A program made the position numbers and the translations under genes. A stretch of DNA of 64,000 bases. It comes from Liolophura sinensis. Taxonomy: Eukaryota; Mollusca; Polyplacophora; Chitonida; Chitonidae. The DNA lies in NCBI RefSeq assembly GCF_032854445.1, contig NC_088297.1:26591915-26655914 (forward strand). The letters run 5' to 3'. Positions 27,683-64,000 of the stretch are shown one piece after another. The notes under the pieces were generated by a model. It was not told the DNA's origin. It saw nothing but the letters and a program-made list of their open reading frames with translations, and made no database searches. Numbering within the stretch: position 1 is the first letter of the stretch; every line of letters starts with the position of its first letter.

Positions 27683-30600
27683 CTACAAAACAGAACCGAG
27701 AAACTAACTTAACTTACGTACACATATATTTGCATTCATTTTACAAATATTTTGAATAGTAAAATATTTTGAATAGTATATAGGTAGCCAGTATAGGTGT
27801 AAGGAAAACCCTGCTCAAACTCAACACAAGTCATACAATCTGAAAGAGTTACTGACATGAGTTTGTAGCTTATCAACTGATTACTTACTGCTTTAGTTTG
27901 TGCACGAGAATAATCCCGACATAAGATGACCTGGGAAATTCTCAAAACCACCGCGACAATCGGATTCATACACATCATTGTCTAATGCTTGTCAAAATGT
28001 TAAAATTTTTGATGTTTTTCAAAGAAAAAATATGTGTTGATCAAAATGTACCAAACTCAAAGCTGTAGATGTTGAAACCTGCAAATAGTATACTTACCTG
28101 ATGGGTGTTTAATCCAAATAACGAAGTGGGACGGGTCACTTTTATACTGCACCACACTGGACACCTGGTAGGACTGGCCGCTAAGGCTGAAATGAAGGGC
28201 CGTCAGGTCAGAGCTGGGCAGACCCTCCACAAAGTGGATCATTACACACTGTGAGAGCCTGAAAAAAGAGAGTAACAAGGGCTATTAGCAAAACCAGCCT
28301 TACTTCCAAGCTTGTGAACTCTCCTTGCCACCCCCTCCCCCCAACCTTCCCACAAACACAAACCAAAAAAACCCTGCATTTCTCACATGCGAACTCCCAC
28401 CCACCCTTAATTAAAGAGATTCCATTTCATCTCTGAGTGAAACGTACAAGCCAAATGAGCATCTATGAAATTCCATGGAAAGTGACCCAAATTTTCGGGT
28501 CTCACAAGAATGGAAAACATCCATGAACAATAGGAAAACATCCATTAACAATCTTGCTGAAGCCAACTTAAAGACACATACACAAACACATCAGTGTTTG
28601 TTAAGTTATACACAAACACAATTTACATACATGTAGGATTTTGAACAAAGAAAAAAAAAATTTATATATGTGCAGTTAGAAATATACCTATATATAAACA
28701 CATATGTACCTCACTATCTCTATCTAGAGTTTAAGCTGATAGCAGTTTTGTGGGCGGAGGAAACCCGTCCCTGTGGTAAACCACTGACCTACAGCAAATT
28801 AGTGTCAAACATGAACCACGTGTATCCTAGTGACTGGAAGTCAAGAATCTTTATCATCTAGCCATGACTCGCTTACCACCTGTCAATCCATGGAGGAAAT
28901 ATTCAGTCACAGGGGCATGAGTCTGCAAAGCATTTCATGATAATGTTGATTATCAACAGGCTTCCTACTCCAGAACACAATTCAGAAACATACGTGAATC
29001 TATTCTTAGTCGTTTTTAGTAAGTGACAGGAGTCCATCAACAACACACTAGGACGAGGTAAAAATAAAAAATTTTTCAATTAGACTCTGGCAAAAGCACT
29101 TCTACTTAAAGTTACTGGCGACTTACTTTTCAAAGTGAAGCTGTCTCTTCTGGTTTGGTGCTGAGCAGAAGAAGCAGTCCCTCCAGTGTGAGACGTTGTA
29201 CATGGAGAAATCCTCCACAACTTTGGGGAGAGTTGGCAGGACTTTGGTATACCTGGGGGAAGACAAACACAACCCGTTAACTACACACTGTACATGGAGA
29301 AATCCTCCACAACTTTGGGGACAGTTGGCAGGACTTTGGTATACCTGGGGGAAGACAAACACAACCCGTTAACTACACACTGTACATGGAGAAATCCTCC
29401 ACAACTTTGGGGAGAGTTGGCAGGGTTTTGGTATACCTGGGGGAAGACAAACACAACCCGTTAACTACACACTGTACATGAAGAAATCCTCCACAACTTT
29501 GGGGAGAGTTGGCAGGACTTTGGTATACCTGGGGGAAGACAAACACAACCCGTTAACTACACACTGTACATGAAGAAATCCTCCACAACTTTGGGGAGAG
29601 TTGGCAGGACTTTGGTATACCTGGGGGAAGACAAACACAACCCGTTAACTACACACTGTACATGGAGAAATCCTCCACAACTTTGGGGACAGTTGGCAGG
29701 ACTTTGGTATACCTGGGGGAAGACAAACACAACCCGTTAACTACACACTGTACATGGAGAAATCCTCCACAACTTTGGGGACAGTTGGCAGGACTTTGGT
29801 CTACCTGGGGGAAGACAAACACGACCCGTTAACTACACACTGTACATGAAGAAATCCTCCACAACTTTGGGGACAGTTGGCAGGACTGGTATACTTGGGG
29901 GAAGACAAACACAACCCATTAACTACACACTGTACATGGAGAAATCCTCCACAACTTTGGGGACAGTTGGCAGGACTTTGGTATACCTGGGGGAAGACAA
30001 ACACAACCCGTTAACTACACACTGTACATGAAGAAACCCTCCACAACTTTGGGGACAGTTGGCAGGACTGGTATACCTGGGGGAAGACAAACACAACCCG
30101 TTAACTACACACTGTACATGAAGAAATCCTCCACAACTTTGGGGGACAGTTGGCAGGACTTTGGTATACCTGGGGGAAGACAAACACAACCCATTAACTA
30201 CACACTGTACATGAAGAAATCCTCCACAACTTTGGGGAGAGTTGGCAGGACTGGTATACCTGGGGGAAGACAAACACAACCCATTAACTACACACTGTAC
30301 ATGAAGAAATCCTCCACAACTTTGGGGAGAGTTGGCAGGACTGGTATACCTGGGGGAAGACAAACACAACCCATTAACTACACACTGTACATGAAGAAAT
30401 CCTCCACAACTTTGGGGACAGTTGGCAGGACTGGTATACCTGGAGGAAGACTAGCACAACTGGTTAACCAGACACTGTACATGGAGAAATCCTCCACAAC
30501 TTTGGGAAGAGTTGGCAGGGTTTTGGTATACCTGGGGGAAGACAAACACAACCAGTTAACTACACACTGTACATGGAGAAATCCTCCACAACTTTGGGGA

Positions 30601-32820
30601 GAGTTGGCAGGACTTTGGTATACCTGGGGGGAAGACAAACACAACCCATTAACTACACACTGTACATGGAAAAATCCTCCACAACTTTGGGGAGAGTTGG
30701 CAGGACTTTGGTATGCCTGGGGGAAGACAAACACAACCCATTAACTACACACTGTACATGGAGAAATCCTCCACAACTTTGGGGACAGTTGGCAGGACTT
30801 TGGTATACCTGGGGGAAGACAAACACAACTGGTTAACCAGACACTGTACATGGAGAAATCCTCCAAAATTCTGGGGAGTGTCGGCAGGGCTAGTAAAGAT
30901 CCACATAATCGGCATAATCTTTACCTTTTCATTTACAAAGGTTCAATGTGGAACTTGGATAGAATATGAAAGTCATTATTAGACATGAAAATTAGACAAG
31001 AAAATTAGAAGGATGTATCACTGCTCCAATATCAGTACTTACCTTTCAATCTTTGTGTCACCACACTCAGAGCATTTCGTCTCAAACTTGTACGTGGTCT
31101 CAAACAGGTGGCAGATATCAGAGTCTGAGTGCAACAACAATGGAATGGCAAAAACAGGGCTGTCTTTGCGTCCTTTCTCACACTGTAACTTGGGCTGTAA
31201 AACCTGCCAGACCTGCTCCCGAACACAGTTAAGTATGGAGCGGGCCTTCCGGAAGCCAGGGTCCCGAACCATTATCTCTGCCCAGGATGCCAGGTTGGGG
31301 CTGTGAATTTGCCCTGCACCCATTTTGAGGGGAACGCCGCCATTTGAAATTGATTGAATAGGTCTTGACAAATGGAAGACTTGTTTCTTTGATTCCTTCT
31401 CTGCATGTGATTCCCAAGACATGCCTTTATCTTTAATCTTGGTGTCTTTGGCAGGTTTTATCTCCTGCTGTTGAGCAAATCTATCTTGAGTCCACACTCC
31501 ACTGCTAACACTTCTAGTCAATGTTTCTCCTCCTTCTGACTTTGGCACAATCTTTAGTTTTTCTCTCTCGGTGCAAAGCGACTTGCTTAGTGCCATGGCC
31601 TGATCATAAGCCGCTAACAAGGTGCGGACTATGTATGTCTTTCCTGTCTCTGGCTCTGTGCCTGAGGAAGTTTTCAAAGAAAGGTCAACTGCCGTTTTAA
31701 CCGACCGGCTCTGCACTAGCAGACAGAGGACAACGTCTAACCAACACAGGGCATCCCGATTTTCCCACTGTATATACCACTTACTGAGAACATCTACATC
31801 TTCTCCCTTCACATCATTTTGCTGGGCATTACAATAGTCTCGTACCGGCAGTTTTCCACCTCTGCCAGAGTTTGCCCTCCGATTACATCGTCCATCATTA
31901 CTCCGGCTTCCCCTGGTCTCAGCTGAACTCTGAACATCAAAACCATTCAGTTTAACAGAATGGATTGAGGATTTCTTCACACTGGTGGTCATAACATAGT
32001 TTGCCTTCATTTGGGTGCCATTTCCTGAGGGGAGGTTTCCAGCTGCAGGTGTTGCATTGTGAACACTAGCTGCTGTTTTATAGGTTCCTGCTGGAATTGT
32101 ACCGGACTCATGAGCATCACAAGTCCTGATCTGGCCTTGGTTTGGAGTACGTCTATCTTCCAATTCAACCTCTGCCAACGTGACAGGGACAATGTTTTTC
32201 TGGAACAGTCCAGGAGTGTAACCACCACACACTTTGTGTCTTGAAATGTGAGGACCTGTTTTTCCACGCCATGGAGAGAGATTCTTTGTGACAGTGTTTC
32301 CAATCCCTGAGGAATTGTGAATCTTGTCTGCATTGGATACTGCTCTCTTTCCATTGGATACCTCTCTCTTCAGGCTTTCAGGCTTTCTGATGAGATCATC
32401 TGTCTTAACAAGGCCTAATGGGTATGTACACTGCCAACATAAAATGTACCATTAATTTATTAGACTGATCATTTTAAGGTTAGGACGAGAAAAACTGTGA
32501 CGGAGAAGAATTGCTGAAATGCTAGTAACCAAAAATGTTATTATTTACCCACCAATTCTTTTTGTATAAAAGGAAATTCATGCACACTGATACATTGTAG
32601 CAGATAAAACAGATTACTCTTCACTCGTCAATTTTTATAACAGGATTAAGAGGAGTGTCATTCATTCTAATAAGTGTCACAAATCAAAATTCTCTGAATC
32701 ATTTCTTACCTTTTTATTGGCACACAGAGTAATGGACTCCTCAAAATTGATATGAAAGCGTTGTAGTTTCCCCTGAAGCCCATTTTGTCGGCATACAGGA
32801 CAGTCTGGGTTCAAAGCCAT
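26274..32820 (-). CDS. USPL1: USPL1 homologue, SUMO isopeptidase (5 coding exons)
   Basis: Known role: USPL1 is a cysteine protease of the ubiquitin-specific protease fold that removes SUMO, not ubiquitin. In vertebrates it works in Cajal bodies and supports snRNA gene expression. Seen: five exons (32820-32710, 32430-31043, 29252-29127, 28258-28098, 27682-26274) with GT-AG borders and matching phases give 1064 residues; human USPL1 has about 1090. The N-terminus carries CPVCRQNG and then CTYPLG, as in vertebrate USPL1. The catalytic Cys lies in ENRDALCWLD (residue 266), His586 in SHFVIW and Asp603 in MECDDLEGP. A zinc-type pair CSEC…CFFC spans exons 2 and 3. The 465-codon last exon is a low-complexity tail ending in two similar acidic motifs (LPDECSVDSGDLTELL and LPDECNSIDALL). 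The ATG sits directly at a splice acceptor, so a 5' exon must exist upstream. Identification is firm; the tail is poorly conserved, as in other species. Confidence 0.93.
28098..28258 (-). CDS. USPL1: USPL1 coding exon 4
   Basis: 161 nt between a ctcttttttcag acceptor and a gtaagta donor. It encodes MIHFVEGLPSSDL, SYQVSSVVQYKSD and SHFVIWIKHPSG, including the catalytic His. The reading phase joins exon 3 (AA|G) and exon 5 (G|GG) without a shift. Confidence 0.93.
29127..29252 (-). CDS. USPL1: USPL1 coding exon 3
   Basis: 126 nt encoding YTKVLPTLPKVVEDFSMYNV then SHWRDCFFCSAPNQKRQLHF-EK. It holds the second CxxC pair of the finger region and has a gtaagt donor. The acceptor (gtcttcccccag) and the first ~60 nt of this exon are copied about 18 times in the upstream intron; only this copy continues into the full exon with a donor. 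Confidence 0.9.
29190..30890. repeat. Exon-derived minisatellite in USPL1 intron 2 (array J)
   Basis: Nineteen units of 90-92 bp, counting the real exon as the first. On the minus strand each unit holds 'gtttgtcttcccccag' (a full 3' splice site), then 'gtataccaaagtcctgccaa' and on to 'gatttctccatgtaca', which are the first ~60 nt of exon 3. Then comes 'gtgtgtagttaacgggttgt' leading to the next acceptor. The copies diverge from exon 3 exactly after ATGTACA. Units of 92 bp put a TAG stop three codons after the break. The 90-bp variants lose two bases and stay open across neighbouring units. The long plus-strand frames here are by-products. Confidence 0.95.
31043..32430 (-). CDS. USPL1: USPL1 coding exon 2 (catalytic Cys)
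   Basis: 1388 nt. The acceptor is tttatgttggcag and the donor gtaagtactg. It begins CTYPLGLVKTDDLIRKPES, aligned with the vertebrate N-terminal zinc-binding region. A disordered stretch of about 190 residues follows, then SKWYIQWENRDALCWLDVVL with the catalytic Cys, and VLQPKLQCEKGRKDSPVFAI of the protease domain. Compared with human, the protease core carries an extra Lys/Ser-rich insert of about 100 residues between these two blocks. Confidence 0.93.
32710..32820 (-). CDS. USPL1: USPL1 first coding exon
   Basis: 37 codons, MALNPDCPVCRQNGLQGKLQ then RFHINFEESITLCANKK, matching the CPAC…SFQESIFLC region of vertebrate USPL1. The ATG follows immediately after a gtgattcag acceptor, and there is no in-frame ATG in the intron. 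Translation may start here, or in an earlier exon if the N-terminus is longer, as it is in vertebrates. Confidence 0.88.
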
Positions 32821-36969: not shown

Positions 36970-37330
36970 CCGATCACCATCCCAACAGTACTCGTCAGCC
37001 TACATCCACGAGGGGAACGGAAGTACATCCACCAGGAGAACGGACATCCATCAGGAGGACGGTGTAGTGCGCATGACCACACATATGGCGCGAAATGTAA
37101 AGTAGTGGGATATAGTTACACATTTGTGTTCACTAAAAAGACATACGGATTATATCACTGTATATCTCATACTATTAACTTAAATTTTATTTACTACAGG
37201 GCTTCTCCAAAATAATCGAACTATAGACAACAGATGATGAATAAGACAAGGTATCTTATAAATTATCGGTATAAATTATCGAACTATCGAAGACAGATGA
37301 TGAATAAGACAAGGTATTCTATATCATAAG
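36970..37330. repeat. Outlying repeat relics and small tandem duplication
   Basis: Positions 36998-37066 carry three loose copies of the 'acatccacgaggaggacgg' core of the neighbouring array K. At 37200-37325 a 60-bp segment ('gacagatgatgaataagaca' plus 'aggtat') is duplicated in tandem. Confidence 0.6.
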
Positions 37331-37477
37331 GACCCAACAGCCCACGGCCTCTCCAGACCCGTTGTCCCGACATGGGGTTCATAGGCCTGTAGGACTGTAC
37401 AGTATACAGGTACTTGGCAAGACGGTGGTTTTCCCCCGGCATCTATATAAATTGTGCCTAATTTACCTTCATATAGG

Positions 37478-39722
37478 TATAAAGTACAACATCCACGAGG
37501 AGGACGGTGGCTAATTTAACTTCCTGCAGGTATAGAGTACAACATCCATGAGGAGGACAGTGGCTAATTTACCTTCCTGAAGGTATCAGATACAACATCC
37601 ACCAGGTGGACGGTGGCTAATTTACCTTCCTACTGTTATAAGGTACAACATCCACGAGGAGGACGGTGACTAATTTACCTTTCTGCAGGTGTAAAGTACA
37701 ACATCCACGAGGAGGACGGTGGCTAATTTACCTTCCTGCAGGTATCATGTACAACATCCACGAGGAGGACGGTGGCTAATTTACCTTTCTGCAGGTGTAA
37801 AGTACAACATCCATGAGGAGGACGGTGGCTAATTTACCTTTCTCCAGGTGTGAAGTACAACATCCATGAGGAGGACGGTGACTAATTTACCTTTCTGCAG
37901 GTATCAGGTACAACATCCACAAAAAGGACAGTGGCTAATTTACCTTTCTGCAGGTGTCAAGTACAACATCCATGAGGAGGACGGTGGCTAATTCATGTTC
38001 CTGCAGGTGTAAAGTACAACATCCACGAGGAGGACGGTGACTAATTTACCTTTCTCCAGGTGTAGAGTACAACATCCATGAGGAGGACGGTGGCTAATTT
38101 ACCATTCTGCAGGTGTGAAGTACAACATCCATGAGGAGGACGGTGGCTAATTTACCTTTCTGCAGGTGTGAAGTACAACATCCATGCGGAGGACGGTGGC
38201 TAATTTACCTTTCTGCAGGTGTAAAGTACAACATCCACGAGGAGGACGGTGGATGCTTTACCTTCATATAGTTATAAAGTACAACATCCACGAAGAGGAC
38301 GGTGGGTAATTTACCTGCCTATAGGTATAAAGTACAACATCCACAAGGAGGACGGTGGCTAATTTTCATCCCTATATGTGTAAAGTACAACATCCACGAG
38401 GAGGACGGTGGCTAATTTACCTTCCTACAGGTATCAGGAACAACATCCACGAGAAGGACGGTGGGTAATTTACCTTCCTGCAGGTATAAAGTACAACATC
38501 CACGAGGAGGACGGTGGCTAATTTACCTTCCTCCAGGTATCAGGAACAACATCCACGAGGAGGACGGTGGATGCTTTACCGTCATATAGTTATAAAGTAC
38601 AACTTCCACGAGGAGGACGGTGGCTAATTTACCTGCCTTTAGGTATAAAGTACAACATCCACAAGGAGGACGGTGGCTAATTTACATCCCTATATGTATA
38701 AAGTACAACATCCACGAGGAGGACGGTGGCTAATTTACTTTCCTGCAGGTATAAAGTACAAAATCCATGAGGAGGTCGTTGGCTAGTTTACTTTCTTATA
38801 GGTATAAGGTACAACATCCACGAGGAGGACGGTGGGTAATTTACCTTTCTGCAGGTGTGAAGTACAACATCCATGAGGAGGACGGTGGGTAATTTACCTT
38901 CCTGCAGGAGTAAAGTACAACATCCACGAGGAGGACGGTGACTTATTTACCTTTCTGCAGGTGTAAAGTACAACATCCACGACAAGGACGGTGATTAATT
39001 TACCTTTCTGCAGGTGTAAAGTACAACATCCATGAGGAGGACGTTGGCTAGTTTACTTTCCTATAGGTATAAGGTACAACTTCCACGAGGAGGACGGTGG
39101 CTAATGTACCTGCCTATAGGTATAAAGTACAACATCCACAAAGAGGACGGTGGCTAATTTACATCCCTATATGTATAAAGTACAACATCCACGAGGAGGA
39201 CGGTGGCTAATTTACCTTCCTGCAGGTATAAAGTACAAAATCGACGAGGAGGACGGTGGCTAATTTATGTTCCTGCAGGTATAAAGTACAACATCCACGA
39301 GGCTATAGCTATAAAGTACAACATCCACGAGGAGGACAGTGGCTAATTTATCTTCCTATAGGTATAAAGTACAACATCCACGAGGAGGACGGTGGCTAAT
39401 TTACATCCATATAGGTATAAGGTACCACATCTACGAGGAGGACGTTGGCTAATTTACATCCCTATAGGTTTAAAGTACAACATCCATGAGGAGGACGGTG
39501 GCTGATTTACCTCCCCGTAGGTATAAGGTACAACATCCACGAGGAGGACGGTGGCTAATTTACATCCCTATAGGTTTAAAGTACAAAATCCATGAGGAGG
39601 ACGGTGGCTAATTTACATTCCTGCAGGTATAAAGTACAACATCCATACGGAGGACGGTGGTTAATTGACGTTCCTATAGGTATCAGGTACAAAATCCACG
39701 AGGAGGACGGTGACTAATTTAC
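37478..39722 (+). repeat. ~54-bp minisatellite, forward orientation (array K)
   Basis: About 41 units with the core 'gtacaacatccacgaggagg' plus 'acggtggctaatttaccttc' and 'ctgcaggtataaa'. Each unit contains 'accttcctgcag|gtataa', which reads as a 3' splice site joined to a donor-like word, and often a PstI site. The same unit in reverse orientation forms array L at 46385-47735. Confidence 0.95.
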
Positions 39723-39739
39723 CATCCTTTTTCTCCGCA

Positions 39740-41656: not shown

Positions 41657-44346
41657 CAAGTCCAAGACATAACCGAAACCAAAGCCCTTTAGAAATTCCC
41701 TTCTCGGATTTGTCAAGAAAATCTCCAGCTCAGAGCTCTCGGACCTAGATAAACACATAATCATGTATACAGTTGTACGAGGAAGGGGTTAGGAGAAGCT
41801 ATCAATATAACACAGTGAAACACTCTAAAACACTCGTTTTAGATGCATAATAATATATCCCGGGCGATGAAGTGCATGAGGATCTTTATGAAATCACATG
41901 CTACCATCAAGTGTGGCTGTATGATGTGAAACAATACATTAAACTATATGTCATGTAACAAATTAATTATTTGTATCGCAGCAACTATTCTTCAAATAGC
42001 AGCGAAATCTTTCGAGTTTGTGTGATATGAATGTACAATGGTGCTGCACGCCACTATAGAAGAATAGGGAAAGACAGAAATGTGTTTAAAACTACTGTAT
42101 ATAGTCAAATACAAGGGTCAATTAAATACACTGTGTCTGTAAATTATAATTGCGCAGAAAAATGTGTAGGTATTCCTAAGCTAATTGTTGTTCACACCAG
42201 TCACTGTGCGAAACTCCAGAATGCGCCTACACATATGAGGAAATATAGAAAAATATGTAAAAGACAAAGAAAATAAATGAAGTGTACAGATTTAAGCTAT
42301 ACATACCACTTTGAACCTCTGTCTGTCAACAAGCCTTCCACATACTGGTCGATCACATCAACCTGAAATATCAACATTATGCGGCATATATATATACAAT
42401 CCAAACATTGTGTTTAAGTTGGTTAAAAATCCAAAAATTGTCAGACACAGTTTAATGGTATTTTTCTACTGATGCTGAATACTTGAGGCTCAGACCCACC
42501 TGTTATTTCTAAACATTTTGAGTATATGCCTCAATGTCACCTGGGGCCTTCATGGCTCAGTCGGTTAGCGCGCTAGCGCAGCGTAATGACCTAGGAGTCT
42601 CTCACCAATGCGGTCGCTGTGAGTTGAAGTCCAGCTCATGCTGGCTTCCTCTCCGGCCGTACGTGGGAAGGTCTGCCAGCAACCTGCGGATGGTCGTGGG
42701 TTTCTCCCGGGCTCTGCCCGGTTTCCTCCCACCATAATGCTGGCCGCCGTCGTATAAGTGAAATATTCTTGGGTACGGCGTAAAACACCAATCAAATAAA
42801 CAAATCAATGTCACCTGCATGACAACTGCTCCCTTATCCATACCTGTGAAATGACATCAGATACACAAATAAACATGTTGGAATCCTGCTCCTCATTGTT
42901 GAGTTCCTCGTCCGCAAATGGAATAATCCTGGACACTTGTAAGTCTTCTGACGAAAACCTACAGAAATCAAGACATCACAAAAGTTGTATCTTTCTTGAA
43001 AACATACGAGAAATGACTGCAACACTTATCAAAATCGACGCCCACATCGTTACACATTCTAAAGCAAAACGTATCGGAAAGAATGTGTTCAAGACAAAGA
43101 CCTTAACCCTAAGACATGCAACAATGTTCAGTCATGCCCAGCATTTGTCGCCCCAAGCACCACAATGCAGATATACACGAGTATAATATTCAATTCAGAT
43201 TTGAAATGCATTTCCTTAATTAGTGTTCTCTTTGCGAATAATTATCCTTCAACATGACGTGCAATGGAAATGCCGTGAAGAACTGTGTTCAGTTAGATAG
43301 CAAAGAACGGCACTTTTACCTACAAAAATAAACACGTCTTTTGAACATTGTGATAATTTAGTTATTTATTTCAATGGTGTTTTACGCCTCAAAAACAGCT
43401 CAATTTACAGCCCATGTGATGGCGGTCAATTTTATGGACATATGTGCATGGACTGTAATATATAGCGCAGACTTAAAGCCTAATTAGATTGCTCGCACAG
43501 TGAAGGCTTTGGAAAGAAGTTTAAACCCGTGCAGAGCTGATCCAATTTCTTGTGTGAATATATACAGTGTAATTTGACAAATAGATTATGAATCTGGCTT
43601 TGCTTTTGTTCTAGCTTTGTTCTAGCTTAAAAAGTTTGACCACAATTTACCTACTGTTCATGCATTAGGCATAAATAGCTAACCACGAATGTGGCTTTGT
43701 TTTGGTTCTAAAGAAGTTTTCGCTTTTAGGCACACTTTATTCTGATTTTTGAGACACGATGCGAAAAGCAGTAATGGTGCAATGCTGAAAGTTGGTCAGC
43801 AGGACAAATTGTGCTCTTCTGTCGTATCAAATTATTACAGATGAATAGTTTTCCAGTGATTGGCATTAAAATTTTTGCCAAATTTTTAAAATTTTGGCGT
43901 CACCTACAGAGCCGATAAATCTGCATATACGTCTGGATGACCACTAGGAGTATACACTTCGAAAAAAGATGTAGAAAAATAGTTCAAGAACATATCATCT
44001 CATTGACAGGGAATGAATCTATTTTTTTAACATGAAAAGTTAATCAAAAAGCTCGCCTATCATATAAAGCCGCAGACGATAACTATATATGTACACAGTA
44101 TTTTAGATGAATGAAACGTATTGATGCTTAATTTTACGTACCATTTTGTCCCTCAACGCGTGCTTTCCAGTGTACAGCTCTCAAATGGTTCTCTACTTTC
44201 TTCTTCCTTGTTGGCTTGAACTTTGACGGTGGACATAACGGACAATGGAATGAAATATAGTCTCCTTTACAACAATCCTTGCAACTTTTTACACAACTTA
44301 AAAATTCATCCACAGACTGAATCACGACAGGTTGGTGTGCTGTCAT
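41657..44346 (-). CDS. Unidentified gene, C2H2-like first exon (partial model)
   Basis: Not recognised. Four minus-strand exons are proposed. Exon 44346-44142 has a good start context and begins MTAHQPVVIQSVDEFLSCVK. It carries a C2H2-like finger (HCPLCPPSKFK, then VENHLRAVHW) and ends at a gtacgt donor. Exon 42958-42844 encodes FSSEDLQVSRIIPFADEELN, then FICVSDVISQ. Exon 42362-42307 encodes VDVIDQYVEGLLTDRGSK. Exon 41744-41657 encodes SESSELEIFLTNPRREFLKG, then FGFGYVLDL. The last three join in phase with consensus borders. The first exon ends in a phase that does not fit the second in its coding frame (the alternative frame hits a stop in the third exon), so at least one exon between 42.96 and 44.14 kb is missing from this model. 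The gene sits between the inverted arrays K and L. A zinc-finger protein is an inference from one finger. Confidence 0.45.
42543..42804 (+). mobile_element. Full-length MetaSINE-like SINE with 12-bp target duplication
   Basis: The best copy in the window. The tRNA-like head is 'ggggccttcatggctcagtc' with 'ggttagcgcgctagcg', the B-box region is 'gagttgaagtccagctcatg', and the core is 'gcccggtttcctcccaccat' with 'aatgctggccgccgtcgtat'. The tail is 'aaaacaccaatcaaataaac'. It is flanked by perfect 'tcaatgtcacct' repeats at 42531-42542 and 42805-42816. It lies in an intron of the unidentified minus-strand gene, about 40 bp from its exon at 42844. Confidence 0.93.
43362..43445 (-). mobile_element. 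MetaSINE-like tail fragment
   Basis: 'ttatttatttcaatggtgtt' then 'ttacgcc' and 'atgtgatggcggtcaatttt' match the tail and part of the core on the minus strand, with a rearranged middle. Confidence 0.5.
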
Positions 44347-46328: not shown

Positions 46329-46369
46329 TTAGAAGTTAATTTGGTAATCATCAATGTTGTACTGCATAC
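46329..46369 (-). CDS. Putative terminal micro-exon beside array L
   Basis: Minus strand: an acceptor 'ttttccatccttcag' (ending 46370) is followed by a frame MQYNIDDYQINF and a stop. An overlapping AATAAA lies at 46325-46330. The exon start GTATGCAGTACAACAT matches the repeat unit of array L (GTATAAAGTACAACAT) right after the same kind of acceptor. It could be the seed of the array or merely its last eroded unit. Confidence 0.3.
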
Positions 46370-46384
46370 CTGAAGGATGGAAAA

Positions 46385-47735
46385 CTTTATACCTATAAAG
46401 GTTGAACTTTATACATATAGGAAGGTAAATCAGCCACCGTCCTTCTCATGGATGTTGTACTCTATAGCTATAGGAAGGTAAACTGGTCACCATCCTCCTC
46501 GTGGATGTTGAATTTTATACATGTAGAAAGGTTAATTAGCCACTCTCCTTCTCGTGGATGTTGTACTTTATAACTATAGGAAGATAAATTTTCCACCGTC
46601 CTCCTCGTGGATGTGGTACCTTATTCGTACGGGAAAGCAACTTAACCACCGTCTTCCTCATGGATGTTGTACTTTATACCATTAGCAATGGTGTAAATTA
46701 GCCACCGTCCTCCTCATGGATGTTGTACCTCATGCTTACATGGAGGTAAGTTAGCCACCGTCCTCCTCCTGGATGTTGTACCTTATACCTACATGGAGGT
46801 AAATTAGCAACCGCCCTCCTTATGGATGTTGTACTTTATACCAGTAGGAAGGTAAATCAGGCACCGTCCTCCTCGTGGATGTTGTACCTGACACCTCCAG
46901 AAAGGTAAACTAGCCACCGTCCTCCTCGTGGATGTTGTACTTTATACCAGTAGGAAGGTAAACTAGTCACCGTCCTCCTCGTGGATGTTGAACTTTATAC
47001 CTATAGAAAGGTAAACTAGTCACCGTCCTCCTCGTGGATGTTGAATTTTATACATGTAGGAAGGTAAATTAGCCACCGTCCTCCTCGTGGATGTTGTACT
47101 TTATACCAGTAGGAAGGTAAACTAGCCACCGTCCTCCTCGTGGATGTTGAACTTTATACCTATAGAAAGGTAAACTAGTCACCGTCCTCCTCGTGGATGT
47201 TGTACTTTATACCTATAGGAAGGTAAATCAGCCACCGTCCTCCTCGTGGATGTTGTACTTTATACCTATATGAAGGTAAATTAGCCACCGTCCTCCTCGT
47301 GGATGTTGTACCTCATGCTTACATGGAGGTAAGTTAGCCACCGTCCTCCTCGTGGATGTTGTACCTTATACCTACATGGAGGTAAATTAGCCACCGTCCT
47401 CCTTATGGATGTTGTACTTTATACCTATATGAAGGTAAATTAGCCACCGTCCTCCTCGTGGAGGTTCTACCTGATACCTATAGGAAGGTAAATTAGCTAC
47501 CGTCCTCCTCGTGGATGTTGTACTTTATACCTAAAGGCAGGTAAATTAGCCACCGTCCTCCTCGTGGATGTTGTACCTTTTACCTGGAGGAAGGTAAATT
47601 AGCCACTGTCCTTCTCGTCGATGTTGTATCTTATGCCAGTAGGAAGGTAAATTAGCCACCGTCCTCCTCGTGGATGTTATACTTTATACCTATGGGGAGG
47701 TGAACTAGGCAAGGTCCTCCTCGTGGATCTTTAAT
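46385..47735 (-). repeat. ~54-bp minisatellite, reverse orientation (array L)
   Basis: About 25 units that are the reverse complement of array K; on + they read 'ttagccaccgtcctcctcgt' plus 'ggatgttgtactttatacct' and 'ataggaaggtaaa'. Further loose units of the same type lie at 47950-48005, mirroring those at 36998-37066 outside array K. Confidence 0.95.
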
Positions 47736-48544
47736 ATTTTTTCTTCAAGTTAGTGATGGAGGACTGTTAGGTTACTAATTAACAATGACACATTAGAGAA
47801 GGTCTTCAGGGTTACAGTAATGTCTGTGTTTTCGGATAATAAGGGGTTTAAAGTGTTGAGAATTTATCTGCTCGGCTATAGGCCTATATAAATATACAGG
47901 CCTATAGTCTCGTACCTTGCCCAATTATTCGTAAACGAACAAGTTACTTGTTCCGTTCTGCTCATGGATGTCCGTTCTCCTCGTGGACGTTCTCCTCATG
48001 GATGGCGGCTGCCCAGTGCTACTCCACCATCCGTTTGGCTTGACTCGTACATTTAGTGAAATGTCTGGGTAAGCGTCCTTTCGTTGTTTGTTGTTATGGG
48101 TGAAAAACAAGTGCGTTGATGTTCATTTGCTGTTTTGTTTGATTGTATTCACTTGATACAAGCTGTGAAAATCGAAAACACTCATTTACGGTGATGAAAG
48201 CTTTTTTCGTTAAAGTTTTTTCTTTTTACCTATGTAGATTTGGGCATTTGGATGATCTGTGTTAAAAAATGGTAGACTTATATCATTTTCATGGACGCAC
48301 ACATTCAGCATGAGTTTTCACTATTCTCTGTTGGTTTCTGGTAGTCGTTAGTGTTTACGGTCTAACAGTTTGCACTCTGAGCAAAACTGTGTGTGAAGGA
48401 ATGCAATAGCCAAAAACAGCATAAAGCTTTTTGGCAATTCTAACGTGGCATTAAACTGCGAGCTATTAAATTGCGAAGACGGCAGCTAACTTTTTGTGGT
48501 CTGACTGACAAATTTCAAAATCTATTCAAAGCAGCTAATGGATT
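47736..48544. other. Flank of array L, no supported gene
   Basis: Contains three relic repeat cores at 47950-48005. The plus-strand ATGGCGGCTGCC near 48003 lies in such a relic and closes after 13 codons. A minus-strand 61-codon frame here also runs through the relics. Confidence 0.45.
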
Positions 48545-49206
48545 AGATGCCTGACAATGTGCTTGTTAGGAGCCTGACAATGTCCTAGTTAGGTGCCTGA
48601 CAATGTCCAAGTTAGTGCCTGACAACATCCTTGTTAGGTGCCTGACAATGACCTAGTTAGGTGCCTGACAATGTCCTTGTTAGTTGCCTGACAATGACGT
48701 AGTTAGGTGCCTGACAATGTCCTTGTTAGGTGCCTGACAATGTCCTTGTTAGGTGCCAGACAATGACCTAGTTAGGTGCCTGACAATGTCCTAGTTACGT
48801 GCCTGACTATGTCCTTGTTAGGTCCCTGACAATGTCCTAGTTAGGTGCCTGACATTGTCCTAGTTAGGTGCCTGACAATGTCCTAGATAGGTGCCTGACA
48901 ATGTCCTAGTTAGTGCCTGACAACATCCTTGTTAGGTGCCTGACAATGACCTAGTTAGGTGCCTGACAGTGTCCTTGTTAGGTGCATGACAATGTCCTAG
49001 TTAGGTACCTGACAATGTGTTTGTTAGGTGCCTGACAATGTTCTAGTTAGGTGCCTGACAACATCCTTGTTAGGTGCATGACAATGTCCTTGTTAGGTGC
49101 CTGACATTGTCCTTGTTAGGTGCATGACAATGTCCTAGTTAGGTGCCTGACAATGTTCTACTTAGATGCCCGACAGTGTCCTTGTTAGATACCTGACAAT
49201 GTCCTA
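48545..49206. repeat. 23-bp minisatellite (array M)
   Basis: About 29 units with the core 'gttaggtgcctgacaatgtc' plus 'ctt', ending about 380 bp before the RITA1 start codon. The unit carries TTAG|GTGCCT. Since an acceptor-like 'tttttgttcattgcag' follows at 49262-49277, the array may lie in the RITA1 5' intron. Confidence 0.93.
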
Positions 49207-49585
49207 GTCAGGCTACTCATTTGCAGACTTGGCGAAGTGATGAAAGCTGTCTGATTTTGCATTTTTGTTCATTGCAGTGAAGAAGAAGAAGAACTGACTG
49301 AAAACAATCCTGCTGCCATTGGATGGAGATGTTTTAAGTAGGGCATACCTTTACCAATTCTGGTTGCTGCAGTGATCTGTGTAAATGAGCGTTTGATTAC
49401 AAAGACACATACAACAATGGCTGGTGCAGATAATATCAACAGTTCTATGATAGACACTGGAGTTTTCGTCAAAGTGACATGATTTGGGAGAACTGATCTG
49501 GCCCAGACCTGGTGGTCATTGTTGTTCAACTGTAACAATTGTTAGCTATATTGTTTTTCAAGATAAGCAGCAATAACAACTAGAA

Positions 49586-50239
49586 ATGAGATTAAGTCGT
49601 AGCGAACAAGATTTGACCTTGACAGGCACTCGTCCACCATCGGCATGTTCTTCGAATGGACCGAATTCAGGCAGAAACTCTCGAAAAGGCTATGTGAAAG
49701 TTGCCAATACATCAGTGGCAGATGAACTCTTGTTTTCCTCCTCAGTGTCCAGAATGAAACTGGAGGATGCGTCCTTTGATGCTCCATGGGTGACAAAGAA
49801 GGACCAGCGACAAATTCTGCTGTGGTCACCTGCTCCATCAAGTATGCGAACAACAAGGTCAACACCAGCAGGTGATCAAAGGACAGAATCCAGCCCAGTA
49901 GACAAGCCAGCAACGGGACTGGTTGTCACCAAGAAAACACCCAAAATCAAAGACACAATGTTAAAGACACGACACCCATATAGACTTGTCAAGAACACGC
50001 CTACCTTTGTTGATGAATGCTTGTTTGGCCCTCGCCTGGAGGAGCCATCTTTTACGGCTCCATGGAATGTGAAAGTGAAACCAGTAGGTGCTCAAAGACC
50101 TGGGACGCCCAGCAGGGGCCCCAGGGGAGTAGTGGCTGGAAACGGCGTCACAAAATTGGACTTTAGGTACAGACCAAGGTCTGCCATGAGGTCCGCATCT
50201 GATAGTGACACTGGTGCTAAGCCAATCTGGAAGCCTTGA
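49586..50239 (+). CDS. RITA1: RITA1 homologue (RBPJ-interacting and tubulin-associated)
   Basis: Known role: RITA1 is a small Notch-pathway modulator that binds the transcription factor RBPJ/CSL, shuttles it out of the nucleus and associates with tubulin. Seen: a single 217-codon frame (human 269). Three family blocks occur in the usual order. The first is KGYVKVANTSVADELLFSSS, followed by DASFDAPWV. The second is ILLWSPAPS. The third is YRLVKNTPTFVDECLFGPRL, followed by EPSFTAPWNVK. The C-terminus KPIWKP corresponds to the vertebrate KPPWK end. The two (V/F)DE-LF…APW blocks are an internal duplication typical of the family. The start at 49586 has an A at -3 and an in-frame TAA 12 nt upstream, so it is the first codon of this frame. 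Pro/Ser-rich linkers suggest disorder. I could not confirm the RBPJ-binding motif residue by residue. The coding region is unspliced; an untranslated exon upstream is possible. Confidence 0.88.
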   Translation: MRLSRSEQDLTLTGTRPPSACSSNGPNSGRNSRKGYVKVANTSVADELLFSSSVSRMKLEDASFDAPWVTKKDQRQILLWSPAPSSMRTTRSTPAGDQRTESSPVDKPATGLVVTKKTPKIKDTMLKTRHPYRLVKNTPTFVDECLFGPRLEEPSFTAPWNVKVKPVGAQRPGTPSRGPRGVVAGNGVTKLDFRYRPRSAMRSASDSDTGAKPIWKP

Positions 50240-50399: not shown

Positions 50400-50970
50400 G
50401 GACGAGTTGTACCAATCTGTACATTGTTATTGATATGAGCTTTTGATGAGTTGTACCAATCTGTACATTGTGTTATTGATATGACCTTTTGATGAGTTGT
50501 ACCAATCTATACATGGTGCTATTGATATGAGCTTTTGATGAGTTGTACCAATCTATACATGGTGTTATTGATATAAGCTTTTGATGAGTTGTACCAATCA
50601 TCGTATACATCGTATTATTGATATTAGTTTTCGAGAGCAACTGCTCTCATCAGTTATTATGTGTATCTGATGATGGGAACAGTTGCTCTAGAAAGCTCAT
50701 ATTAGTAAAACCGTGTATAGATTGGTACAACTCATCAAAAGCTCATATCAATAGCACCATGTATAGATTGGTACAACTCATCAAAAGCTCAGATCAATAG
50801 CACCATGTATAGATTGGTACAACTCATCAAAAGCTCAGATCAATAGCACCATGTATAGATTGGTACAACTCATCAAAAGCTCAGATCAATAGCACCATGT
50901 ATAGATTGGTACAACTCATCAAAAGCTCATATCAATAGCACCATGTATAGATTGGTACAACTCGTCTTGT
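50400..50970. repeat. Long inverted repeat of a ~45-bp unit in the RITA1 3' region (array N)
   Basis: Forward units ('gatgagttgtaccaatctat' plus 'acatggtgttattgatatga') occupy 50400-50600. The reverse complement ('agattggtacaactcatcaa' plus 'aagctcatatcaatagcacc') occupies 50715-50966. The ~110-bp centre is itself partly palindromic (gagcaactgctctcatcag / ctgatgatgggaacagttgctc). The outermost arms also pair (aggacgagttgtacc with ggtacaactcgtct). A transcript through it would fold into a hairpin with a stem of about 200 bp. Confidence 0.92.
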
Positions 50971-56385: not shown

Positions 56386-57245
56386 CATGCCACGGGTATC
56401 ACAGGGCGTTAGTGTACATGTAGACACCTGTTAGAATGAGCTCAAATACCACTGGTATCACAGGGCGCTACTGTACATGTAGACACCTGTTAGAATGAGC
56501 TCAAATACCACTGGTATCACAGGGCGCTACTGTACATGTAGACACCTGTTAGAATGAGCTCAAATACCACTGGTATCACAGGGCGCTACTGTACATGTAG
56601 ACACCTGTTAGAATGAGCTCAAATACCACTGGTTTCACAGGGCGCTACTGTATATACATGTAGACACCTGTTAGAATGAGCTCAAATACCACTGGTGTCA
56701 CAGGGCGCAACTGTACATGTAGACACGTGTTAGAATGAGCTCAAATGCCACTGGTGTCACAGGGCACTACTGTACATGTAGACACCTGTTAGAATGAGCT
56801 CAAATGCCACTGGTATCACAGGGCACTACTGTACATGTAGACACCTGTTAGAATGAGCTCAAATACCACTGGTATCACAGGGCGCTACTGTACATGTAGA
56901 CACCTGTTAGAATGAGCTCAAATGCCACTGGTATCACAGGGCGCTACTGTACATGTAGACACCTGTTAGAATGAGCTCAAATGCCACTGGTGTCACAGGG
57001 CACTACTGTACATGTAGACACCTGTTAGAATGAGCTCAAATGCCACTGGTATCACAGGGCGCTACTGTACATGTAGACACCTGTTAGAATGAGCTCAAAT
57101 ACCACTGGTATCACAGGGCGCTACTGTACATGTAGACACCTGTTAGAATGAGCTCAAATACCACTGGTATCACAGGGCGCTACTGTACATGTAGACACCT
57201 GTTAGAATGAGCTCAAATACCACTGGTACCACAGAGCGCTACTGT
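56386..57245. repeat. 60-bp minisatellite, highly homogeneous (array S)
   Basis: About 14 units with the words 'aaataccactggtatcacag', 'ggcgctactgtacatgtaga' and 'cacctgttagaatgagctc'. Very few differences between units indicate recent expansion or homogenisation. Confidence 0.95.
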
Positions 57246-57349
57246 TCATGCATATATGAGAGACTGCCACTGTAGACTTGTAGACAATGCCATGGATTTC
57301 ATATCATGCTATGATACATTAACAAACAAAGAATGAACAACAAAGTGTG

Positions 57350-57750
57350 AATACACACTGTCATCAAGAGGACTGCTTCAAGTCACAGGTATGCACATAA
57401 TACACACAGTCATCAAGAGGACTGCTTCAAGTCACAGGTATGCACATAATACACACTGTCATCAAGAGGACTGCTTCTAGTCACAGGTATGCACATAATA
57501 CACACAGTCATCAAGAGGACTGCTTCAAGTCACAGGTATGCACATAATACACACAGTCATCAAGAGGACTGCTTCAAGTCACAGGTATGCACATAATACA
57601 CACTGTCATCAAGAGGACTGCTTCAAGTCACAGGTATGCACATAATACACACAGTCATCAAGAGGACTGCTTCAAGTCACAGGTATGCACATAATATACA
57701 CAGTCATCAAGAGGACTGCTTCAAGTCACAGGTATGCACATAATATATAC
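57350..57750. repeat. ~47-bp minisatellite, highly homogeneous (array T)
   Basis: About eight units with the words 'acacagtcatcaagaggact' and 'gcttcaagtcacaggtatgc' plus 'acataat'. Each contains CACAG|GTATGC, a donor-like junction. Confidence 0.95.
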
Positions 57751-59794: not shown

Positions 59795-60085
59795 AGGCAG
59801 AAACATAACCTGCGCAGGCAGACACATAGCCTGTACAGGCAGACACATAACCTGTGCAGGCTGAAACATAACCTGTGCAGGCAGAAACATAACCTGTGCA
59901 GGCAGAAACATAATCTAACCTGTGCAGGCAGAAACATAACCTGTGCAGGCAGAAACATAATCTAACCTGTGCAGGCAGAAACATAACCTGTGCAGGCAGA
60001 AACATAATCTAACCTGTGCAGGCAGAAACATAACCTGTGCAGGCAGAAACATAATCTAACCTGTGCAGGCAGAAACATAACCTGC
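59795..60085. repeat. 21-bp minisatellite with ~47-bp higher-order unit (array U)
   Basis: Units 'cctgtgcaggcagaaacata' plus 'a'. In the right part they pair with a 5-bp spacer (tctaa) to form a ~47-bp composite repeated four times. It lies about 400 bp beyond the ASAP stop codon and so may be in the 3' UTR. Confidence 0.93.
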
Positions 60086-60458
60086 ACATTCATTTTGTGC
60101 CTTCAAACATTAATTGCTTTAGTTCATAGTTTATACATGGTTACAACTGTGATAAAAGTTAACACATACTCTACTGTCAAAAGTTAACCACATGAAAAAT
60201 GTGCTTTTTGGCAAAAACATAAAAAATATCAGATTTCTCCAGAAGGATGTTGTAAAACACTTACACATGTAAAAAGGTTTACAGTATAATGCACTAAATT
60301 AATATTCTCTGCCTGCAAAAGAAGCCAGCCAATCATCTATCACAAAAACATCACATGCTTTTGGTATAAAATCTCCATAGCCAATGGGAAACAAGCTAAC
60401 AAATTTAAACTATCCAATGAACGAACATACAACAATTTGTAGCTAAAGACCACTGAGG

Positions 60459-60533
60459 TCAGTCATTGAGAATGTGCACAAAGCTAACAGGAAACAGGCC
60501 ACGGCGGTTGGGGTCTCCTTCAATCTCGCCCTC
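60459..60533 (-). CDS. ASAP last coding exon
   Basis: 75 nt after a cctatttgtag acceptor. It encodes [20 protein letters not shown] then ILND and TGA, the last strands of the SH3 domain and the conserved C-terminus of the family. Confidence 0.9.
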   Translation of the reverse strand, partial: EGEIEGDPNRRGLFPVSFVHILND

Positions 60534-62523
60534 CTACAAATAGGAAAACAACAGAAGAATTAGCACAAGTTTACATGTTGATGGTAATAGTTGTACAGTG
60601 ATCACTTTCTAGCTACTGACTGTTTCCATACCAATATCATGTTAGACACATTTCAAATCACCACTGGATGTAAATGTTAACACTTCTCACAACTTACCCA
60701 CCAATCCTCCTCTTCTTCACGAATAATCACAATTATCTCCCCTTCTTGAAACGACAGCTCATCTTCATTGTCTGCTGTGCAGTGGTACAACGCTCTGCAT
60801 CTTCTGCGCCCAGGTTTTTTCTACAGGTATATACAATGTAACAACATTGCAATGGACAAACAGAGGTAGTTTTCATACATCAAGAAATACTAGTGTCTAT
60901 GTTCAAGAATGATTTTGTTTGAACGAGTTCAACCTTGCCTACAACATCTGATGATCACAGGTGTTTTCTTGTGGAAGGCTAGGGGCAATGACAACAGATT
61001 TATAACGCTGCCTCACTAGAATACCATGCCTAAGACACTATACCTGAAAGCCCACCTAATCACAGTACATGGACACCAGACACAGACACAAGCCATAATA
61101 GCCCAGCAAGTCAGGGTAGTAGCCTGTACTAACTGCAGTTTTTAAATCTTTTTTATTATTTTCAAAAATGATGAAAGTGTACACTTGTTAAACTTATGAA
61201 TCAATCTGCACCCTACATAAGCTGGCCTACCTTAGCCCTGAGAGACATAGGTGAGAAGCCACCCTCTAGGGGAGAGCCTTCACACACACTAGCTGTATAA
61301 AGGAACTGGCCTCCTTAGCCCTGAGAGACACAGGTGAGAAGTGACCCTCTAGGGGAGAGCCTTGGGGAGACAGGTGGACTAGCACACTAGCTGTATTAAG
61401 GAGCTGGTCTACCTTAGCCTTGGGTTACAGTTGACTCTCTAGGGGAGAGCCTTCACACACACTGGCTGTAGTAAGGATCCAGACAGCCTTAGCACTGAGT
61501 GACACAGGTGGGAAGGAACTCTCTGGAGGAGAGCACACACACACTAGCTGTATTAAGGAGCTGGCTTATCTTAGCCCTGAGATGGGATACAGGGGAGAAG
61601 CGACTCTCAAGGAGAGCCTTGACGCACATTAGCTGTATTAAGGAGCTGGACTACCTTATTTCAGGGCTGGGGAACAGGTGGGAAGTGACTTTCTTGAGCG
61701 CTGACCTAAGTAAGCCCTGGGCTGGAGGAGAGGGGGAAGGAGCTGGCCTACGTTAGTCTTGTGGTACAGGTGGGAAGTGACTCTGTGTGGGAGATCCTTC
61801 ACACAAACTAGCTGTATTAAGGAGCTGACCTTCCTTGGCTGTGGGCTGGGGGACAGGTGGGAAACAACTGTGTGGGGAAGAACCTTCATATACACTAGCT
61901 GTATTAAGGAGCTGGCTTACCCTAGCCCTGAGAGACACAGTGGGAAGGGACTCTCTTGGGGAAAGCCTTCATGCACAGTAGCTGTATTATGGAGCTGGCC
62001 TACCTTAGCCCTGGGCTGGGGTACAGGTGGGAAGTGACTCTCCGGGGGAGAACCTTCACTGGAACTCTGTGAGTCTCGTAATATCGGCCGTCGTATACAT
62101 GTAGCATCTGAAAGAACAACGACATATTGTCCATCACAGCACTCCCAGACGACTACTGTTGTGGAATTCTGTGTGAATTGTGGAGTCAATTCTGGGATTT
62201 GAACTTCAGGAAATCCATCTGGAATGCTGTTGTTGTTCCCTAGGCTATTAGTGTTTAAGATATTTGCTGAGAGATATGCTATAATTTCAGTCTTAGTTCA
62301 TCCAATTTTAAAACTGTTCAAGACACTAGCTTCATCATCCCAATATTTGTCACCTTGCCACTTCCCCAATGGTAAGACAAGAGCAAGTTTTAGGCAAAAT
62401 AGCAACAATGACTGTGAGTATGAGGTAATTAAAGACCGTCCACAGCTCCCTGCTCACTCACCTTTTTCCCCCATGGACTGCGTCCTCTGATATCGCGGGG
62501 CTATGCTGGGCTTTCCACTTCCA
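60459..62523 (-). CDS. ASAP-family Arf-GAP, last four exons (C-terminal SH3)
   Basis: Known role: ASAP1/2/3 proteins (BAR-PH-ArfGAP-ankyrin-Pro-rich-SH3) stimulate GTP hydrolysis on Arf GTPases and link membrane traffic to focal adhesions; the SH3 binds partners such as FAK-type kinases. Seen: exons 62523-62462, 62107-62004, 60820-60698 and 60533-60459 join in phase. The first two encode the Ser/Pro-rich linker ([15 protein letters not shown], then [18 protein letters not shown]). The last two encode a complete SH3: [35 protein letters not shown], then [20 protein letters not shown] and ILND-stop. The FPVSFVHI ending and the DNEDELSF block match ASAP1/2 rather than other SH3 proteins. The aromatic and acidic ligand-site residues (ALY, DELSF, DWW, P/F near the end) are all present. 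BAR, PH, GAP and ankyrin regions must lie to the right of the window. Which paralogue it is cannot be told. Confidence 0.9.
60698..60820 (-). CDS. ASAP SH3 exon
   Basis: 123 nt (41 codons, phase 0 at both ends) between a tatacctgtag acceptor and a gtaagttg donor. It encodes [20 protein letters not shown], then [21 protein letters not shown], the first half of the SH3 with the RT loop. Confidence 0.9.
61215..62045. repeat. Exon-end minisatellite in ASAP intron (array V)
   Basis: About ten units of 80-100 bp, diverged. On the minus strand each resembles the last ~60 nt of the exon at 62107-62004 ('gaaggttctcccccggagag', 'tcacttcccacctgtacccc', 'agcccagggctaag'). Then follow the donor 'gtaggccagctcc' and some 20 bp of intron ('ttaatacagctagtgtg'). 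Several units keep a perfect AAG|GTAGGCC donor (for example near 61231). Translated, they give shuffled versions of [18 protein letters not shown]. Confidence 0.88.
62004..62107 (-). CDS. ASAP Pro-rich linker exon
   Basis: 104 nt. The acceptor is gttctttcag and the donor gtaggcc. It encodes [20 protein letters not shown] then [14 protein letters not shown] and ends in phase 0, fitting the SH3 exon. Its 3' end and donor are the seed of array V. Confidence 0.8.
62108..62461. other. ASAP intron without repeat
   Basis: About 350 bp of unique intron between the two linker exons, with a clean gtgagtg donor and a tttcag acceptor. Confidence 0.7.
62462..62523 (-). CDS. ASAP linker exon
   Basis: 62 nt. 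The acceptor is ctttgtccgtag and the donor gtgagtgag. It encodes [20 protein letters not shown], a Ser/basic linker with a possible phosphorylation motif (RTQS). The frame with phase 1 at both ends is the only one that joins the next exon without a stop. Confidence 0.78.
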
Positions 62524-64000
62524 CTACGGACAAAGTAAACATCAACATCAGTGAGGAATAAGAATGAAACCGCCATTACTGACAAGGTAAACATCAACAT
62601 CAGTGAGGAATAAGAATGAAACCGCCATTACTGACAAGGTAAACATCAACATCAGTGAGGAATAAGAATGAAACCGCCATTACTGACAAGGTAAACATCA
62701 ACATCAGTGAGGAATAAGAAAGAAACCTCCACTACTGACGAGGTAAACATCAACATCAGTGAGGAATAAGAAAGAAACCGCCATTACTGACAAGGTAAAC
62801 ATTACCATCAATGAGGAATAAGAACGAAACCTCCACTACTGACAAGGTAAACATTACCATCAGTGAGGAATAAGATTTATTTATTTATTTATTTGATTGG
62901 TGTTTTACGCCGTACCCAAGAATATTTCACTTATATGACGGCGGCCAGCATCATGGTGGGGGGAACCTGGGAAGAGCCCAGGGGAAACCCACGACCACCT
63001 GCAGGTTGCTAGAAGAGCTTCCCATGTACGGCCTTAGAGAAAGCCAGCATGAGCTGGACTTGAACTCACAGCAACCGCATTTGTAAGAGACTCCTGGGTC
63101 ATTACGCTCTTGCGCGCTAACTGACTGAGCCACGGAGGCCCCGTAAGGAATAAGAACAAAACCGCCACTACTGACAAGGTAAACATCAACATCAGTGAGG
63201 AATACGAACAAAACCTCCACTACTGAAAAGGTAAACATAAACATTACTGAGGAATAAGACCAAAATGTCCACTACTGACAAGGTAAACATAAATATCAGT
63301 GAGGAATAAGAATAAAACCACCACTACTGAAAAGGTAAACATCAACATCAGTGAGGAATACGAACAAAACCTCCACGACTGACACGGTAAACATCAACAT
63401 CAGTGAGGAATACGAACAAAACCTCCACGACTGACACGGTAAACATAAACATCAGTGAGGAATAAGAACAAAACCTCCACTACTGACAAGGTACACATAA
63501 ACATCAGTGAGGAATAAGAAAGAAACCTCCACTATTGACAAGGTAAACATAAATATCAGTGAGGAATAAGAACAAAACCTCCACTACTGAAAAGGTACAC
63601 ATAAACATCAGTGAGGAATAAGACCAAAATGTCCACTACTGACAAGGTAAACATAAATATCAGTGAGGAATAAGAATAAAACCACCACTACTGAAAAGGT
63701 AAACATCAACATCAGTGAGGAATACGAACAAAACCTCCACGACTGACACGGTAAACATCAACATCAGTGAGGAATAAGAACGAAACCTCCACGACTGACA
63801 CGGTAAACATAAACATCAGTGAGGAATAAGAACAAAACCTCCACGACTGACACGGTAAACATAAACATCAGTGAGGAATAAGAAAGAAACCTCCACGACT
63901 GACACGGTAAACATAAACATCAGTGAGGAATAAGAACAAAACCTCCACTACTGACAAGGTACACATAAACATCAGTGAGGAATAAGAAAGAAACCTCCAC
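62524..64000. repeat. Splice-acceptor minisatellite in ASAP intron (array W)
   Basis: About 23 units of ~52 bp run to the window end. On + each reads 'cagtgaggaataagaacaaa', 'acctccactactgacaaggt', 'aaacatcaacat'. The first unit merges into the acceptor of the exon at 62523: 'ttccactacggacaaagtaaacatcaacat' in the gene aligns with 'ctccactactgacaaggtaaacatcaacat' in the array. Read on the minus strand each unit therefore carries 'cttgtcagtag|tggagg', a copy of the 3' splice site with about six exonic bases. A SINE interrupts it at 62876-63145. Confidence 0.92.
62876..63145 (-). mobile_element. SINE (MetaSINE-like) inserted in array W
   Basis: A near full-length minus-strand copy (tail at 62876, head 'gagccacggaggccccg' at about 63142). 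It is flanked by a 10-bp duplication 'aggaataaga' (62866-62875 and 63146-63155) taken from the repeat unit. The insertion post-dates the array, which continues on both sides in the same register. Confidence 0.92.

Follow-up and report, generated by a model that had tools for sequence, protein, structure and literature searches.

Introns of a USPL1-like gene and of an ASAP gene in the chiton Liolophura sinensis hold tandem arrays whose repeating unit spans an exon-intron junction, lining the introns with copies of their own exon edges and splice sites. The window in which these arrays were found, meaning the whole stretch of 64,000 nucleotides that was analyzed, lies on scaffold C3 at 26.59-26.66 Mb, with the end of the scaffold ~0.83 Mb further on, in a 609-Mb assembly of 632 contigs; the genome was first published as Liolophura japonica, according to the available part of that report (PMC11068029), and the species has since been corrected to L. 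sinensis (PMC12441733). Arrays of this kind are already described, under the name 'mirages', in the accessible portions of two reports on amphioxus (PMC3087553, PMC3902484), and a first-pass annotation of the window, which had supposed the class of exon-edge minisatellites to be undescribed, was mistaken on that point. New here is the recurrence of mirages in a mollusc, a new phylum as far as the literature was searched, together with an estimate of their frequency.

Exon-edge arrays in the USPL1-like and ASAP genes

The USPL1-like gene, recognized by Pfam Peptidase_C98 matches on three exons (one of them below the curated cut-off), carries an array of a 92-bp unit in 18.5 copies at 94% match by Tandem Repeats Finder (TRF). 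Each unit combines ~56 nt of exon with ~36 nt of intron including the acceptor, and the initial claim that this intron is filled with tandem copies of its acceptor and exon edge holds, with 18 copies counting the real one. All but one of these copies (17/18) keep CAG/G with the AG in place (a slash marks the splice junction), while one reads CAAG. The working acceptor is the exon-proximal copy (29253/29252), where the two halves of the Peptidase_C98 profile, 74-144 on the upstream exon and 141-186 on the next, join. The remaining copies behave as intron, because their exon-derived part is no less variable than the rest (mean minor frequency 0.046 vs 0.033 in the intron part, with the column split one base out and ragged alignment ends inflating the exon figure) and because the unit alignment places a 2-nt frame-shifting deletion in the exon-derived part of 5 of the 18 units. 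In most decoy units the reading frame reaches TAG just beyond the exon-derived part, and use of a decoy would therefore truncate the protein. We estimate the length of this intron before expansion at ~250 nt.

The ASAP gene, fixed by an SH3 exon and an ArfGAP exon (Pfam, ArfGAP E 2e-15), lies on the minus strand from ~60.4 kb to past 123 kb, and was followed into ten 10-kb pieces (L006-L015) that continue the window past its end on scaffold C3. Its exons were located by comparison with a human ASAP1 sequence, and small exons may have been missed. Two ASAP introns had been proposed to hold such arrays. The intron between the proline-rich exon and the SH3 exon does contain diverged copies of the exon edge and donor, seven beside the real one when listed and eight decoys (one doubtful) when scored; since the copies have diverged, TRF detects only 61766-62059 of this 87-bp array, and 2 of the 8 decoys are as strong as the real donor. 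The second intron, said to repeat its acceptor with about 6 nt of exon, fared less well: a 52-bp array does adjoin the acceptor, but the overlap is weak, reaching from 3 nt (TRF) to ~8 nt (by eye) into the exon. A dispersed element at ~62875-63143 interrupts this array, and copies of an element whose translation includes a motif resembling CFTPYPRIFHLYDGGQHYGG occur at 21489-21746, 24962-25180, 42602-42856 and 62874-63086, the last of these inside the array.

Judged from sequence, the clearer ASAP case is an 80-bp array beside the ArfGAP exon donor, outside the window (within L008:2805-3945, with an unrelated insert inside). Its unit joins ~55-60 nt of exonic sequence to CCAG/GTAAGTCTG, the junction is set by the ArfGap profile (4-21, a weak match, then 23-66 on the next exon), and 8 of 12 recognized decoys equal the real donor in score; before expansion the intron would have measured ~140 nt. 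A further array, also beyond the window, lies at the acceptor of the BAR exon, where a 46-bp unit repeated 3.9 times reaches ~25 nt into the exon.

Tandem arrays are error-prone in assembly, and those described here are known from a single assembly, which raises the question of artefact. The reads, however, are HiFi reads averaging 8.3 kb at 14x in the available text of the genome report (PMC11068029), as against junction arrays of 0.2-2.6 kb, and the copies differ from one another by patterned substitutions. We consider an artefact of assembly extremely unlikely.

Recurrence across the genome and likeness to amphioxus mirages

The frequency of such arrays was estimated in two samples of conserved exons, with splice sites called by a weight matrix. 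The myosin sample drew on at least 81 exon matches to the PF00063 profile, of which 76 were taken and 5 left out; the kinesin sample drew on 132 matches, taking 20 of the first 21 that were without stops and skipping one on C6 at 0.63 Mb. In the myosin genes a TRF array runs into the exon at 7/71 donors and 2/72 acceptors, and a TRF-free 30-mer test gives 6/71 and 2/72 (8/143 junctions). The corresponding TRF counts for kinesins are 0/19 donors and 1/20 acceptors (1/39 junctions). Pooling the myosin 30-mer and kinesin TRF results, 9 of 182 called junctions (5%) lie in arrays, which suggests, from a small sample, that about one exon-intron junction in twenty of this genome carries such an array. 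Five of the eight myosin cases come from the first five stretches, which hold 25 exons and had been chosen because their exons were dense and their open frames long, and three from the other 51 exons. The junction arrays of the samples are found on scaffolds C1, C2, C3, C8 and C12, some near scaffold ends and others in interiors, and pooled rates at donors (6/90) and acceptors (3/92) do not differ significantly (P 0.33).

Thirteen cases are firm: those at the USPL1-like exon and at the ASAP proline-rich, ArfGAP and BAR exons, eight myosin junctions and one kinesin junction. Their units measure 31-140 bp and are multiples of 3 in 2 of the 13. Weak cases were not counted among them, namely L035 (5 nt of overlap), L055 and L044 (where the array stops at the exon edge, not inside) and a Ku80-like exon in L014, itself without a Pfam match. 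Some myosin exons lie in open frames of 1339-1870 residues, far over exon length (C3 10.78 Mb, C8 10.57 Mb, C11 2.68 Mb), and a large intronic array was not seen in two such long-frame stretches, L025 and L026.

As excerpted from the amphioxus reports (PMC3087553, PMC3902484), mirages are tandem repeats across exon-intron boundaries with units of 10-160 bp, reported so far gene by gene in lancelets (Adh3, the globins BflGb6 and BflGb9, troponin C and PGBD5), reportedly without disturbing regular splicing, and suggested as a route to new introns. The chiton arrays are alike in that they are tandem repeats with units of minisatellite size that span the boundary with its splice site in the 13 firm cases (the weaker array at 62521, not among them, does so by only 3-8 nt), fall at donors as well as acceptors, and keep AG or GT in many copies. 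They differ in host, a mollusc as opposed to a lancelet, although we do not treat a cephalochordate host as defining for mirages, and in copy number, which is 18 in the chiton USPL1-like gene vs 3-6 in amphioxus BflGb6 in the text available. The kinds of evidence differ as well, since a sampled frequency comes from the chiton, whereas amphioxus, in those same portions, provides evidence that splicing is regular and that array length is unstable.

Beyond lancelets, the literature searched, some of it available in part only, yielded exon-border minisatellites solely as internal tandem repeats at human exon-intron boundaries in segmental duplications, some of them tied to new introns (PMC2812944). 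These too are boundary minisatellites, but in the accessible text they vary between recent paralogs, whereas in the chiton the arrays occupy introns of genes that are conserved. Earthworm metallothionein introns contain arrays for which the part of the report at hand does not state any junction overlap (PMC12783039), and the C. elegans minisatellites near alternative exons are, from what is available of that report, a different matter (PMC4039745). In two chiton genome papers a word search found 'tandem' and 'intron' absent from PMC11068029 and in one unrelated use each in PMC12005716. The presence of mirages in a mollusc, at ~5% of the conserved junctions in a small sample, raises the possibility that they are a general feature of minisatellite-rich genomes. 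They offer natural experiments on how the spliceosome settles on one of several equal copies, and on a possible supply of new introns from tandemly duplicated exon edges.

We take the copy closest to the body of the exon to be the working site, a position that the protein profiles demand in the USPL1-like and ArfGAP exons, and this choice may reflect exon definition. Sequence strength alone cannot separate decoys from the real donor, because 25 of the 52 decoys recognized across eight donor arrays equal or exceed it in weight-matrix score. Such frequent retention of strong donors would be expected if rows of decoys had been selected to buffer or regulate splicing, or usefully to lengthen introns. 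Against such a function stand the USPL1 decoys, which vary like unconstrained copies, a 31-bp myosin array in which the real donor is stronger than 15 of the 16 decoys, and the scarcity of units that are multiples of 3; we think a selected function very improbable.

Origin of the arrays

We regard these arrays as mirages that probably arose where a founder tandem duplication chanced to lie across the border of an exon and an intron, as products of indiscriminate minisatellite birth that are tolerated since the copy closest to the exon is the one spliced. The genome makes many short tandem duplications, as the density of arrays in gene introns and around the window shows, and some founder units would straddle a junction, most easily in short introns (the lengths before expansion being estimates). 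The unit may then expand and homogenize through slippage or unequal exchange, and the copy adjacent to the exon would stay the working splice site since exon definition favors the shortest exon, while the rest become intron. Selection would remove arrays that disturb splicing or coding, which could leave their frequency highest in introns, lower at donors, and lowest at acceptors and in exons.

A profile graded in this way is present in the myosin genes, where the frequency of arrays is higher in introns than at donors, and higher at donors than at acceptors or in exons. By the 30-mer test, sequence 120 nt into the intron is duplicated in 11/71 cases on the donor side and 8/71 on the acceptor side, and sequence 45 nt inside the exons in 3/71 and 0/72, respectively; junctions are therefore intermediate between exon and intron. 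In the USPL1-like, RITA1-like and ASAP genes, border overlap is seen in 3 of the 32 intronic arrays, where random founder placement predicts 2.42 (P 0.45), in a test that required more than 3 nt of overlap and thus left out the array at 62521, took two array limits by hand and excluded the BAR-exon intron. Overlap in these genes is no more than chance, given how short the introns in question had been before they expanded. We had considered whether the contact of three of the window's few intronic arrays with a border means that junctions are targeted, and rejected this as unproven, the contacts being expected from those intron lengths. The proposal that this genome repeatedly amplifies splice junctions, lengthening introns with decoys, thus stands as regards recurrence and decoy-lined introns, seen in ASAP, myosin and kinesin genes, but not as regards specific targeting, given that junctions are duplicated less than introns and border overlap is at chance.

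Several observations weigh against indiscriminate birth and would fit an origin at the junctions themselves, in which 5' splice sites provoke tandem duplication (by way of R-loops or of pausing where an exon ends, for instance) and donors are hot spots. Among myosin donor-side arrays, 7 of 16 enter the exon vs 1.37 expected (conditional P 0.003), five of these seven coming from the first five stretches, chosen as described above, and donors and acceptors taken jointly give P 0.007. Four arrays start 5-16 nt inside an exon, three of them, on the donor side of myosin exons, at 15-16 nt. Genome-wide, CAGGTAAGT occurs twice within 15-60 nt 713 times vs 292 for the reversed motif, and tandem CAGGTGAGT 1496 vs 136 times, both counted per copy and without a single-site baseline. 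Separate arrays of CAGGTAAGT on C1 number 21 vs 9 reversed in a hand count, the forward ones among the matches listed, to 93.4 Mb; the first 100 of the 1496 matches of CAGGTGAGT form 11 clusters within 6.7 Mb. In 180 kb of unmasked sequence, single motifs and their reversals occur in ratios between 0.55 and 3.4 among six donor 7-mers; for the two 9-mers the single counts are 8 vs 1 and 0 vs 2, too small to settle the matter. The donor-motif counts are therefore only suggestive, being per copy and lacking a single-site baseline; an acceptor-motif count of 93 vs 13 was not used because its reversed control contains CpG. Seeding at junctions also has to contend with acceptors that show no excess in myosins (2 vs 1.42 expected) and with the lack of excess in the USPL1-like, RITA1-like and ASAP genes, with the absence of donor arrays among the kinesins, and with pooled donor and acceptor rates that do not differ significantly. 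We hold it to be an unlikely origin for the arrays. Nonetheless, the myosin donor excess and the genome-wide donor-motif counts suggest that a weaker form of junction amplification is still alive, and it is conceivable, if doubtful, that minisatellites repeatedly originate at 5' splice sites in this chiton, with thousands of introns carrying rows of decoy donors of full strength among which the spliceosome would have to choose by position and not by sequence.

The introns themselves might instead be products of duplication, each array being the expanded body of an intron made when an AGGT-bearing exon was duplicated in tandem. Gain of introns through tandem duplication of AGGT is reportedly an idea of Rogers from 1989. 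The chiton arrays share with that model the duplicated exon edge and splice signals, as the model needs, yet they show no new intron, and by eye the USPL1 and ASAP ArfGAP introns repeat one border only, the other end looking unrelated. Such gain has been put forward for amphioxus globins (PMC3087553) and for a potato RdRp gene (PMC4974935), in the available portions of those reports, but as the source of the chiton arrays we find it improbable.

Other arrays and features of the window

A fourth exon-edge array had been thought likely beside a micro-exon at 46369. That candidate was rejected, the coding check there consisting of the list of open reading frames only, because the adjoining array is one arm of a dispersed, inverted 53-bp family whose two arrays in the window lie ~6.7 kb apart. 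A 147-base query from the array has at least 678 matches in the genome; among the matches listed, the family occupies 12 scaffolds and forms three inverted pairs ~12-26 kb apart. As for the ends of the element, a 76-bp inverted match lies outside the two arrays of the window (36987-37062 / 47953-48020). We take the family to be a Foldback-like mobile element with array arms; dispersed copies with inverted terminal tandem arrays, as in such elements, are seen in the window pair and in the three pairs elsewhere.

Table 1. Positions of the exons and arrays discussed, in window coordinates unless a scaffold is named
Feature	Position	Strand	Basis and remarks
USPL1-like exon, 5' edge repeated	29127..29252	-	acceptor CCCCCAG/GTATACC; donor GTAAGT at 29126-29121; Peptidase_C98 141-186
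Acceptor-side array (mirage)	29197..30888	-	TRF, unit listing, unit alignment
Upstream USPL1-like exon, spliced to 29252	31043..32432	-	Pfam Peptidase_C98 74-144
ASAP SH3 exon	60697..60820	-	Pfam SH3_1 E 6.3e-10
Donor-side array (mirage), unit ~87 bp, diverged	61220..62060	-	TRF 61766-62059, copy listing, decoy scores; outer limit by eye
ASAP proline-rich exon, 3' edge and donor AAG/GTAGGC repeated	62004..62107	-	translation ...PPVPQPRAK, then SH3 exon
ASAP exon, acceptor GTAG/TGGAAG beside 52-bp array	62462..62523	-	sequence, translation
52-bp array at ASAP acceptor 62524/62523	62521..64000	-	TRF, sequence; merged arrays run to 65139 beyond the window
Left arm of the inverted pair of 53-bp arrays, distinct from mirages	37454..39728	+	TRF, inverted match, genome-wide matches
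53-bp array, right arm of inverted pair	46401..47728	-	TRF, inverted match, genome-wide matches
Inverted 53-bp pairs elsewhere	C7 28.370/28.386 Mb; C13 12.806/12.818 Mb; C3 12.246/12.273 Mb		among the matches listed
23-bp array, presumed first intron of RITA1-like gene, away from exons	48543..49212	+	TRF; ordinary intronic array for comparison

Arrays found by TRF occupy 33% of the window; in the ten 10-kb pieces that follow it their share ranges from 13 to 71%, compared with 0-27% (mean ~5%) in nine 10-kb pieces elsewhere in the genome, and minisatellite density may rise toward scaffold ends. The longest array tabulated in the window, at 3603-6699, extends over 3.1 kb with ~107 copies of a 29-bp unit (TRF). 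The RITA1-like gene is marked by a RITA Pfam match at 49577-50239, and downstream of its coding frame two 46-bp minisatellites (50404-50631 and 50692-50963) stand in opposite orientation ~60 nt apart; going by their sequence, a transcript across both could form a very long hairpin. Past the window, a Ku80-like gene is indicated by a Ku_N Pfam match in L013, and beyond it, at the end of L015 (~158.3-162.4 kb from the window start), are reading frames like the polymerase of a self-replicating element.

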